Shown here: piece by piece, positions 15,776 through 19,708 of the stretch
How positions within the stretch are numbered: the first letter of the stretch is position 1
How the letters are laid out: each line of letters opens with the position of its first letter
IMG/VR virus record: IMGVR_UViG_3300041403_000394
Coordinates: 1 to 20,734 of that record
Strand: one strand, 5' to 3'
DNA length: 20,734 nt
Source of the DNA: a virus
Position numbers and translations under genes: made by a program
The notes under the pieces: generated by a model
What the model was told of the DNA's origin: nothing
Databases searched by the model: none
Seen by the model: the letters and a program-made list of their open reading frames with translations, nothing else

Positions 15776-17965
15776 TTAGAAACTCCTTCCGTAGGTACCA
15801 CCCCTACGCTTTGCGTCTACTACTGCTGCTTTAGTTGCTTCAGTAATTCTTGGGATTTCCCCACGTACAATACGCTTCACCGAATCATCCCCATTAGCAG
15901 AGATATTGAAGTTGTTGTTGACTACCACAGGCTGACTGGAGCCTTCCATCTGGACACCTAGCTTACCATTCTTACCTCGTTTAAGGGGCATAATAGCTTC
16001 AGGTCCAGCTTCTCCCATAACACCAAGACCACCAGAGTGACTAAACATAGTGGGGCTACCAACAACACCACCATTAGCATAGGCAGTAAACTTACCACCT
16101 CTTTCAAAGGCACCACCGTTAGCCAAGCCAAGTAGGTTCATAATTGCATTAGCACCAGCTTTAGCTACCTTTTCTTGGTAGATAGCCAAGATAATGTTAC
16201 GGAGCATAGACTTGAAAGCATCCTCAACAGATTTACTACCATCAACCATAGACATGAAAGCGTTTTCAATGTGACCTTCAATGGTATTCATCAGTTGCTC
16301 ACGCTGTTGTTCTGCTTCGATCAACTTACGAGTTTCAGCTTCAGTCTTAATAATCTCTTCAATGCGCTGTGTGTAGGCATCTGAAAGACCCTCTTCATAA
16401 CCGTTAAGCTGATTAACTAACTGTTCTCTACGGGTCTCAATAGCAACTTGCTCATCAGACAGGCCAACGAGAGTACTCTTGAACTCAGCCTCACGCTCTA
16501 ATTTTTGTAGGTATTCTTCTGCTTGTTGTATTGGGGATTGCTTTGAGCTTCCTTTAGCGGCTTTTCCCCGGGCAGATTCTTGATCCCTAAGGATGCTACT
16601 AACAGTTGTTACACGCCCTTGGTCGTCCATTTGGAAGGCTGGCCTTGAGCTTGTGGTCCCACGACCTGCATACTGGATGTTTGCTGCATTGGCTACATCA
16701 AGGGTTCTCGCCGCAAGTGCTGCTGCTGCATTATTTGCTGCATCTGCCATATTAGCTGCAAGGGATGCTGATTGATTGACAAGGTGAGACAAGTCGGCCA
16801 TTTTAAGGATTGTAGAAAATCTCTCCGCTTCGTCGGCTACGTCCTTTTGTTGTTGCGTTAAGTCTTGACTAACAGAAAGTAATTCTAGGAGCCTCTCTAT
16901 TTGATCTTGCTCTAGCCCCTCCTGCTCAAGTTTAGTTTGCAGGTTCTCTAACTCTTGTTGGTTCTGGAGCCTTTGAACAGCTAAAGATTCTTCCCCAAAC
17001 TGTAGGGACATTTGCTTTATAGCAACTTCTTGGAGCAGTTGGACCTCTTGTTGTTGAAACCTCTTCAGTCGCTCATCTGCGATCTTTTTCTCTAGGTCTG
17101 CAATTCTTTGAAGTGCTCTCGCCTCTAATTCCCTGAGTTCTTCTAACCGCGCTGCGTCATCCAACCCCAAAGCAGCCGCGCCGGGAATGGCACCTAAGAG
17201 ACTTCTTCCGATAGTTTCTGCTGATAAACTCTCATAGACTGCCCTGATACTCTCTAGTTCACCTCTAACACGGGAGAGTTCATCAGTTGCGAAGAGTTGA
17301 TCTAAGGTCATCCCCTTAGAGAAAGCCTCTTTCGTCTTGACTAATTTTTTCAACTCTTTATCAATTCGAGTGATCTCATCGGCAAGATCACTGCCAGTCT
17401 CTCGTGTACGCATCCAAGCAGCGCCAAGGGCAGTGAGCAATGGTATCGCAATACCGAGTGCAGTGCCGATAGCGATCATCTTACCGCCAAATAGGGTGAG
17501 TGTACCCGCTATCTGAGTGGCTTGTTGACCAAAGGCTACCATCCAGTTAGTGCCAGACTGTACCTGAACCAAAAAGTCACCAATCTGATAACCAGACTGC
17601 TGAACCATAGTGCTCATCTGCCCAATACCACGAGTGGACCTCTGAGAAGCATTGTTTAAATTATTTTGAGCGGCAGTAGCCCTATTGAGGTTATCTACCA
17701 TTTGGTCTACAGCTACATCAGAAGCCCTCATAGCTTTAGTGTACTGGAATACAGCATCACGAGCTTCTTTGTAAGAGAACCCTGCCTTAGTAAGTACAGA
17801 TACTAACTGCGTCTGACCCTTGAAGTAGGCTTGGCTAGAAAGGCGTCCCTTATCCATTTCGGTAGCAAGGCGCTTGGCACTATTCTGTACCTTTACCAAA
17901 GCCCGTTCAGCTTTTATGACATCTTGAGTACCTTGTACCTTAACGTCTAAGAGAATATCAGCCAT
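15776..17965 (-). CDS. Tail tape measure protein, 729 aa
   Basis: This protein sets tail length and leaves with the DNA at infection. It has an alpha-helical N-terminus with glutamine- and alanine-rich repeats, a hydrophobic stretch at about 150-185 (TLTLFGGKMIAIGTALGIAI, continuing LLTALGAAW), long charged coiled coils at about 190-390 and 480-575, and a lambda H-type C-terminal block at about 620-675 (AYANGGVVGSPTMFS, then GVMGEAGPEAIMPL and KLGVQM). At roughly 0.15 nm per residue this would give a tail of about 110 nm, an estimate only. It follows the G/T chaperone genes as in lambda. The ribosome site is weak; the start 3 bases after the T-frame stop suggests coupling. Confidence 0.95.
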   Translation of the reverse strand: MADILLDVKVQGTQDVIKAERALVKVQNSAKRLATEMDKGRLSSQAYFKGQTQLVSVLTKAGFSYKEARDAVFQYTKAMRASDVAVDQMVDNLNRATAAQNNLNNASQRSTRGIGQMSTMVQQSGYQIGDFLVQVQSGTNWMVAFGQQATQIAGTLTLFGGKMIAIGTALGIAIPLLTALGAAWMRTRETGSDLADEITRIDKELKKLVKTKEAFSKGMTLDQLFATDELSRVRGELESIRAVYESLSAETIGRSLLGAIPGAAALGLDDAARLEELRELEARALQRIADLEKKIADERLKRFQQQEVQLLQEVAIKQMSLQFGEESLAVQRLQNQQELENLQTKLEQEGLEQDQIERLLELLSVSQDLTQQQKDVADEAERFSTILKMADLSHLVNQSASLAANMADAANNAAAALAARTLDVANAANIQYAGRGTTSSRPAFQMDDQGRVTTVSSILRDQESARGKAAKGSSKQSPIQQAEEYLQKLEREAEFKSTLVGLSDEQVAIETRREQLVNQLNGYEEGLSDAYTQRIEEIIKTEAETRKLIEAEQQREQLMNTIEGHIENAFMSMVDGSKSVEDAFKSMLRNIILAIYQEKVAKAGANAIMNLLGLANGGAFERGGKFTAYANGGVVGSPTMFSHSGGLGVMGEAGPEAIMPLKRGKNGKLGVQMEGSSQPVVVNNNFNISANGDDSVKRIVRGEIPRITEATKAAVVDAKRRGGTYGRSF

Positions 17966-17968
17966 GTT

Positions 17969-18325
17969 CTACTTTCTGTTACTTGATAGATATAGGGAGT
18001 CTAGTCTCTTGATGATTCCCACATCATATGGGTTGAGAGTATTCCCGGTTAGTTCTTTCCAAGACTGCATGTCAGGATAACTAATAGGGTTAGGGCCGGA
18101 GAAGCCTTGAGACCTTGCTTGGGATAGCTGTAAGAAAAAAGACCAGACGTGAGACAAAAGGGTTGGGAACTCATGGGGGTTCTCTAGTCCTTCTGGCGCA
18201 TGTCCGGTCATCTTCCTTACTTGTTCTAAATGTTCTCTCTGAGTGATACCTTTGTCGTCTGCTTGTAAGAGGGAGAACTCATGCTCTGCCCAATCACATA
18301 GCGTATCACTCAGGCTTGAGTAAAA
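17969..18325 (-). CDS. Tail assembly chaperone, T-like -1-frame extension
   Basis: This frame is open with no stop from 18328, inside the end of the G gene, down to its stop at 17969. An ATG at 18211 exists, but the 38 codons upstream also read as protein (SDTLCDWAEHEFSLLQ, then QREHLEQVRKMTGHAPEG), and no start codon occurs among them. The end (ISYPDMQSWKELTGNTLNPY, then IIKRLDSLYL) matches phage T-type chaperones. It lies one base back (-1) from the G frame, as in lambda G-GT, so it is most simply made by ribosomal frameshift to give a fusion of about 244 residues. It helps load the tape measure protein. If not frameshifted, ATG 18211 would give 80 residues. Confidence 0.75.
   Translation of the reverse strand, partial: FYSSLSDTLCDWAEHEFSLLQADDKGITQREHLEQVRKMTGHAPEGLENPHEFPTLLSHVWSFFLQLSQARSQGFSGPNPISYPDMQSWKELTGNTLNPYDVGIIKRLDSLYLSSNRK
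18308..18325 (-). promoter_or_regulatory. Proposed -1 frameshift site: TTTT run followed by a hairpin
   Basis: Minus-strand TTTT at 18325-18322 spans a zero-frame TTT phenylalanine codon that can re-pair perfectly one base back. Right after it a five-base-pair hairpin forms, ACTCA-AGCC-TGAGT (18321-18308), overlapping the G stop codon. The -1 frame is closed by TGA at 18331-18329, so any shift must occur in the 18-base window after it. The site is not a standard X-XXY-YYZ heptamer (it reads G-GCT-TTT). Confidence 0.45.
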
Positions 18326-18702
18326 GCCTCAAAGGAGTTAAGTTCTCCTTGTAGTTGGTCTACAATCCAGAAGCCAGCATCACCGGAGTAAATCTCTCGT
18401 GCTTTCTTCTTATTGAGCTTGGGCTTCTCACCACCGTAAGTAATGTCCCACTCTTTAGTAATGCCTACCAGAAGGTCCAAGGAAGAACTCTCGTAGTCTT
18501 CAATGGTAAAGTCTTTCTTCTGATCCTTGATGCGCTTGTTAGCCTGTTCATAAACTACAGCCTTATACTCCTTAGTGTGTGGAGCATACAGGGTAATAGT
18601 CATTGGGGTCTTGTCATCATTCTCTAGGACATTATCTGTGCCGGGGTACTTAAGAGTGACAGTAATTACGTTGGATTTAGGTACAATAGTTGAAAGGTCC
18701 AT
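18310..18702 (-). CDS. Tail assembly chaperone G-like, 130 aa
   Basis: A soluble protein between the major tail and tape measure genes, the position of lambda G. It has a beta-rich start (ITVTLKYPGTDNVLENDDKT, continuing MTITLY) and a helical middle with a basic stretch (YEQANKRIKDQKKD), then DLLVGITKEWDITYGG and GFWIVDQLQGELNSF. It would bind the tape measure protein before tube polymerisation, with most copies ending at this stop and a minority continuing into the T frame. ATG 18702 follows AAGGAA by about nine bases. The sequence family is divergent; the call rests on order, size and the adjoining T frame. Confidence 0.85.
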   Translation of the reverse strand: MDLSTIVPKSNVITVTLKYPGTDNVLENDDKTPMTITLYAPHTKEYKAVVYEQANKRIKDQKKDFTIEDYESSSLDLLVGITKEWDITYGGEKPKLNKKKAREIYSGDAGFWIVDQLQGELNSFEAFTQA

Positions 18703-18796: not shown

Positions 18797-19708
18797 TTAC
18801 GCAGGTCGTGTGATCTGGAGGTTAGTCTCAGCAGTAGCATCATACAGTGCAACAAACGGCAGAGTAATGATACGGCTACCAGTCCCATCCACAGGTACAT
18901 CAGCACCGTTAATCTTGATCTTGGGGAATGTGAATGTGTAAGCGTTAGCACCTGTAGGATCATCTACGGAAACATTCAATGCAGTCTCAGTCTCATTGAT
19001 AAAGCGGTTAATCAGTGCAGCATCTTCAAAGTAAGCTGTAAAGGTGCCTTCTACTGTAGCCATACCAGTCTCAAGGAACGGTGTAGCATCATCACCAACT
19101 ACAAAAGTAGGTGCCATAGCGTTATCAATGGAGAAATCAATAGAGGTAACAATAGCAGATGCAGAAGCACCACCAACGTCACCAATGTTCACATCACCAG
19201 AGTAAGCATCGAAAGGTTGTGCGATAGTGGCATCATCTACAGTCTTACCTGTACCACTGATAGTCATATCCTTACCAATCATGGAGAAGGTTGTAGCTAC
19301 CATCTGGTTAGGGGCAATGCTGACAGACATGCTAGAGACGGACATACCAGTGAATACACGATACTGAGCAATGTCATTAGCAGCATCTTCAATGGAGAAG
19401 TACTTAGGGGTAGTGCCAACCTTAAGGACTGTGGTAGCCCAAGTGTTCTGAAGTGCAGACTCTAGGAACGGATCAAAGTTACCATCACGGAGGTCAACTA
19501 CAATGTCACCACCTGTCTGACGGTTACCATGACGGTCAACCCGAAGCATACGATCTGGTTGGATTTCATTACCTGTCACACGATCTTTAGTGAGGTTCAG
19601 GCTGTGTGTGTTATACGGGATAGCAGTAAAGTTACCCGATGGTGTTGTACCGAATGTGGATTCTACGATATACGAGAGACCACTGCGACTTCCTTGACTA
19701 AAGGCCAT
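18797..19708 (-). CDS. Major tail tube protein, 303 aa
   Basis: Forms the stacked rings of the tail tube. The sequence is beta-rich and matches a common siphophage tube pattern: GLSYIVESTFGTTPSGNFTA at the start, LTKDRVTGNEIQPDRMLRVD, GGDIVVDLRDGNFDPFLESAL, then IAPNQMVATTFSMIGKD, with a second similar domain carrying VTSIDFSIDNAMAPTFV and VEGTFTAYFEDAALINRFI. Two related halves and a short beta end fit the Phage_tube_2 type. ATG 19708 has AAGGAG seven bases upstream, in line with heavy expression. It lies between the tail terminator and chaperone genes, the normal order. Confidence 0.93.
   Translation of the reverse strand: MAFSQGSRSGLSYIVESTFGTTPSGNFTAIPYNTHSLNLTKDRVTGNEIQPDRMLRVDRHGNRQTGGDIVVDLRDGNFDPFLESALQNTWATTVLKVGTTPKYFSIEDAANDIAQYRVFTGMSVSSMSVSIAPNQMVATTFSMIGKDMTISGTGKTVDDATIAQPFDAYSGDVNIGDVGGASASAIVTSIDFSIDNAMAPTFVVGDDATPFLETGMATVEGTFTAYFEDAALINRFINETETALNVSVDDPTGANAYTFTFPKIKINGADVPVDGTGSRIITLPFVALYDATAETNLQITRPA

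Follow-up and report, generated by a model that had tools for sequence, protein, structure and literature searches.

The two frames and their neighbourhood

How is a protein made from a reading frame that has no start codon of its own? The question is raised by a 20.7-kb virus record of IMG/VR, described as a marine phage and called here the window (the whole stretch of DNA that was analysed, 20,734 nucleotides), in which two overlapping frames lie with the tail tube gene on one side and the tape measure gene on the other, which is the place of genes G and T in lambda. The features concerned are the following:

18797..19708, minus strand: tail tube protein (Phage_tube_2, E 9e-47), upstream neighbour
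18310..18702, minus strand: gene G, short tail assembly chaperone of 130 aa (ORF, conserved in relatives)
18329..18331, minus strand: TGA closing the T frame upstream, which bounds the slip window (open-frame analysis)
17969..18328, minus strand: T frame, -1 relative to G (open frame, PF23812 and phrog_3817 matches)
15776..17965, minus strand: tape measure protein (phrog_32885, 8.6e-18), downstream neighbour

The G protein of the window gave no significant family match in family searches; in one relative, L061, G hits phrog_313 ('Tail assembly chaperone') with E 2.3e-4. T belongs to Pfam PF23812, Phage_TAC_18 (62.3 bits against a curated cut-off of 27), and also matches phrog_3817, tail chaperonin. 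Searches of solved structures returned no match for G and only marginal and unrelated ones for T, and neither Rfam nor tRNA searches of the window gave a hit.

Five scans for G gave several hundred IMG/VR loci, among them 222 distinct ones with both G and T, from which 56 representatives were used for codon, start and structure statistics; these representatives are related to each other, so that counts among them are not independent trials. A scan of genome contigs found no relative of G. In all 222 loci T lies in the -1 frame without a conserved start of its own, as in a lambda-type pair.

The sequence-only reading had held that T lacks a start in its first 38 codons, reads as protein there nonetheless and is open only from the TGA at 18331-18329, which would confine a shift to about 18 bases near the end of G. 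This picture stands with one correction: the -1 frame runs from 18328 to 17969 after that TGA, and its first ATG, GTG or TTG is the ATG at 18211, which comes after 39 codons rather than 38 and would leave an ORF of 80 aa. The overlap of the two frames (GAG GCT TTT ACT CAA GCC TGA) amounts to 19 nt. That the start-less stretch is protein-coding is borne out by the Phage_TAC_18 match and by its conservation among relatives, whose differences follow a coding pattern (49.8% fall in codon position 3), the N-terminal third of T being common also to distant phages. The first ATG of T lies at least 27 codons in for all representatives, and some have none at all.

The slip site and its variants

The elements around the junction are these:

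18345..18350, minus strand: Shine-Dalgarno-like AAGGAG, candidate upstream stimulator, 20 nt before the slip codon
18325..18327, minus strand: P-site codon GCT (Ala)
18322..18325, minus strand: U_UUU slip tetramer (TTTT)
18324-18322, minus strand: A-site Phe codon TTT
18322-18320, minus strand: first T codon, TAC
18310..18312, minus strand: G stop codon TGA, inside the base of the stem and 9 nt past the slip codon

TTTT, proposed earlier as the only good slip point, is the sole run in the overlap, and the alignment of relatives supports it: TTTTA is kept at the junction in 207 of the 222 loci, as G_GAT_TTT_A (190 loci), G_GCT_TTT_A (6), A_GCT_TTT_A (4), G_GGT_TTT_A (6) or A_GAT_TTT_A (1). Fourteen others carry the canonical T_TTT_TTG, 11 of them in one clade and 6 nt upstream, three at the site itself; the last, L321, has a disrupted G. 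The stop codon of G stands at the same 9-nt distance from the slip codon in nearly all relatives. A tree of G and T places three independent gains of T_TTT_TTG, each on a well-supported branch; GCT characterises the window clade (support 100/100) and also L093. While most relatives have GAT in the P site, GCT is found in three separate lineages.

Codon usage is consistent with constraint on the letters themselves, since the junction Phe codon is TTT in 56 of 56 representatives (59% elsewhere) and the P-site Asp is GAT rather than GAC by 45:1 (53% elsewhere). The sole GAC representative, L145, carries T_TTT_TTG. In it and in L227-L240 a synonymous change of GAT to GAC loses TTTT, and 6 nt further upstream T_TTT_TTG follows immediately on the T-frame stop; this is a relocation of the slip site, and such replacement of a lost TTTT is the pattern predicted by selection for slippage. 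A later scan added a new lineage with GGATTTT in L432, L433 and L437 and GGCTTTT in L434-L436, L438 and L439. These sequences are near-identical, yet both heptamers coexist at the junction, which suggests that both work.

What kind of site is it? The window heptamer, G_GCU_UUU, allows full re-pairing by the A-site tRNA only, just as had been read from the sequence. It departs from the X_XXY_YYZ pattern, in which both tRNAs re-pair, and from the umbravirus-type GGAUUUU of the 190 relatives (the window has GGCUUUU), and it conforms to the Z_ZZN tetramer type (U_UUU, with cognate A-site re-pairing). X_XXY_YYZ heptamers do occur among relatives, as T_TTT_TTG, G_GGT_TTT, T_TTT_TTC and A_AAT_TTT. 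As for the earlier suggestion of a different slip mode, the site is less exotic than supposed, because most relatives use G_GAU_UUU, a known site, and some use fully canonical heptamers; that of the window is one end of a graded series rather than a new slip mechanism.

A more conventional account of the same letters, ordinary tandem slippage in which the Ala-tRNA pairs with GGC at two of three positions and both tRNAs slip, seems rather unlikely. G_GCU_UUU would permit first-position and possibly third-position pairing on GGC, and the G preceding GCT is retained by most members of the window clade; however, L071, L072 and L093 have A_GCU_UUU, in which even the first position fails, and from codon-anticodon pairing the middle position would always be G-G.

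Upstream, a Shine-Dalgarno-like AAGGAG or GAGGAGG lies about 20 nt before the slip codon, at a fixed place in nearly all relatives. The AAGGAG-like position is common to 44 of the 56 representatives (mean z -1.2 against synonymous shuffles), at a spacing longer than usual, and because of this long spacing it is kept as a candidate only: possibly it is an upstream stimulator, possibly it just reflects E-E-A coding.

A predicted stem-loop built on the stop codon of G

Two structures compete for the RNA past the slip site:

18303..18313, minus strand: 5' arm of the putative stimulator stem, CTGAGTGATAC, pairing 11/11 with 18249-18239
18261..18302, minus strand: inner hairpin, GCTATGTGATTGGGCAGAGCATGAGTTCTCCCTCTTACAAGC (folding)
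18239..18249, minus strand: 3' arm of the putative stimulator stem, GTATCACTCAG, pairing with 18313-18303
18308..18321, minus strand: short hairpin ACTCA-AGCC-TGAGT

The stem-loop of the window has a predicted MFE of -33.0 kcal/mol (z -4.85), with none of 200 shuffles as stable, and its 5' arm begins one base before the TGA of G. The spacer between slip site and stem is 8 nt (6-13 nt across relatives). Across the family, a scan with 60-nt windows found folding energies about ordinary except at +6 to +12 nt past the slip codon, where mean z falls to -1.68 and -2.04 (the latter at +12), with none comparable elsewhere; shuffles that preserve the amino acids gave a mean z of -2.21 there, the control values being -0.84 in G and, downstream, -0.13 and +0.36. 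In L069 and L070 paired changes (G-C to A-U, A-U to G-C) leave the 11/11 stem intact. Other relatives have the stem in several registers, usually starting at or just after the G stop codon, and a helix goes beyond synonymous shuffles at p<0.05 in 19 of the 56 representatives, with 5' arms starting at columns 10-17 wherever it is significant. Covariation of the register-87 helix is stronger than in any of 500 shuffles or in any slid version; that of register 83 does not exceed shuffles. RNAalifold found no single family-wide structure for the 56 representatives, covariation in the window clade (six sequences, too small for the test) was not above shuffles, and no strong stem was predicted in L076, L093 and the Roseobacter phage CRP-6. 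The stem-loop is the putative stimulator of the shift.

The sequence-only reading had instead placed the short hairpin directly after the slip site, with no spacer. It is present at 18321-18308 and in L066-L069. As the driver of the shift it is very improbable: it is absent in L070, 5-bp stems at that place are no commoner in relatives than in shuffled sequence, its formation would rule out the long stem, which is far more stable and takes up its 3' arm TGAGT, and a ribosome on the slip site would presumably cover it. The hairpin was accordingly rejected as stimulator, and with it the missing spacer, the larger stem-loop having an ordinary one.

How T would be made

Since T is always in the -1 frame and the junction is always slippery, a programmed -1 ribosomal frameshift very probably yields G and a G-T fusion from one message, with UUUU as the place of the slip and the stem as its putative stimulator. 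Most ribosomes would read G through to its product of 130 aa. The stem-loop 8 nt downstream would hold the ribosome while GCU occupies the P site and UUU the A site, and the Phe-tRNA would slip from UUU to the overlapping UUU, the Ala-tRNA being unable to re-pair properly. Reading would resume at UAC in the T frame, so that a minority of ribosomes would make a fusion of 127 + 117 = 244 aa with the junction ...NSFEAF|YSSLSDTL... An alternative slip, with UUU standing in the P site, would end in the same fusion and is indistinguishable here from an A-site slip. Such a single-tRNA slip is made credible by precedents: U_UU.U shifts measurably in E. coli only with a strong stimulator (PMC4066793), and PEMV with P-site re-pairing blocked keeps 36-40% (PMC4737148). 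The idea that the nearby stop codon may help likewise has a plant-virus precedent. By analogy with lambda, in which gpG covers the tape measure and gpGT brings in the tail tube (PMC5009743), the G product would sit on the tape measure and the fusion would recruit the tail tube.

Could T be made alone? Translation from the internal start at ATG 18211 would give 80 aa; the ATG and its open frame exist, and the annotators of CRP-6 gave T its own start. Even so, this is a very doubtful reading, as the conserved N-terminal third would be lost, the ATG is not conserved (the first one lies anywhere from codon 27 onwards, or is missing altogether) and AGGAAG abuts it with almost no spacing. Still less probable is re-initiation after G at a CTG overlapping the TGA: CTGA is found in the window and many relatives, but other relatives have CTA, TTA or GTA at this codon, and the slip run would then need no conserving, yet it is kept, and is replaced by T_TTT_TTG when lost. 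Slippage by RNA polymerase, an error in sequencing and gene decay can practically be dismissed: programmed transcriptional slippage needs a run longer than four Ts, nothing in favour of these readings was found here, and they are contradicted by the recurrence of the arrangement in 222 distinct relatives, as well as in the genome of an isolate.

Comparison with known systems

The slip site of lambda is G_GGA_AAG, where both tRNAs re-pair, whereas in the window the A-site tRNA alone re-pairs fully; G and T of the window also belong to other sequence families than those of lambda. Shared with lambda gpG/gpGT (PMC5009743) are the place between tail tube and tape measure, the -1 direction, the shift near the end of G and a T without its own start. 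The umbravirus and dianthovirus GGAUUUU (PMC4737148) is the heptamer of most relatives (G_GCU_UUU in the window); in both groups the stop codon of the first frame lies at the base of a large stem-loop, and some members of both have AAAUUUU. They differ in that the phages use a bacterial ribosome and show no homology to these viruses, in the spacer (6-13 nt in the phage family, 5 in the viruses) and in the distance of the stop after the slip codon (9 nt in the phages, 0-3 in the viruses). The U_UU.U tetramers tested in E. coli (PMC4066793) resemble the proposed site in the slippage of a single A-site tRNA. They need a strong downstream stimulator, which in those reporters was the IS3 pseudoknot; the window has a natural phage gene with a stable predicted stem-loop as the candidate.

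The 'twoonefour' motif of PRFect (PMC10885494), proposed as a phage slip motif from inspecting SEA-PHAGES tail chaperone annotations, would by its name correspond to the pattern GG-C-TTTT. The motif is described there as mostly not explainable by G:U pairing, and the text on it names neither a marine family nor a series of related sites. A literature search for the letters of the slip site returned nothing relevant in phages.

Isolate phages and a possible change of direction

Beyond the marine loci, the junction reads T_TTT_TTC in T relatives from phages of Pseudomonas, Vibrio, Acinetobacter, Xanthomonas, Klebsiella and Janthinobacterium, G_GGA_AAG as in lambda in a Mannheimia phage, and A_AAT_TTT_A in a Bradyrhizobium phage; the annotated records of these distant isolates give two separate genes, or none for T. 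In Serratia phage Tlacuache (OK499995, L382) the junction of the T relative may be an A_AAG tetramer (CGA AAG). Roseobacter phage CRP-6 (MK613348, record 24745-25487, L065) has the same site, GTG GAT TTT ACG AAT GTC TAA, with gp45 and gp44 annotated as separate genes; its predicted G-T junction peptide is ...DSVDF|YECLTGELLEYAEHQFK. CRP-6, which has been described as short-tailed (PMC6918029), encodes a tape measure and a G/T-type chaperone pair.

The T family also includes a freshwater branch in which T lies in the +1 frame, again at the same Phe codon. Limnohabitans phage DC31 belongs to it together with some two dozen related contigs (PQ492658, about 1160-1180, which is L389; L391-L425; L430). 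The junction in this branch hardly departs from AAY_TTT_CGN (AAC_TTT_CGA in DC31) or TTT_TGC, which makes UUU_C a candidate site of a +1 shift. Its close -1 relatives L423 and L431 have A_AAT_TTT. It is conceivable, and we advance it tentatively, that the family depends essentially on a single Phe UUU codon where G meets T, that it can do without re-pairing in the P site (GAU, GCU, GGU and AAU interchange), and that even the direction of slippage has been switched, -1 at U_UUU_A and +1 at UUU_C in the freshwater branch.

The frameshift process itself is already known; the new points are that slip sites within one family form a natural graded series, that the predicted stem is built on a stop codon, and that the direction may have switched. 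The G-T fusions predicted for the marine group, that of CRP-6 included, are missed by current annotation. One gene family spans the range from fully canonical heptamers to sites where a single tRNA would re-pair, most with a predicted downstream stem-loop, and this graded series makes the contribution of the P-site tRNA in bacteria directly testable with real sequences.
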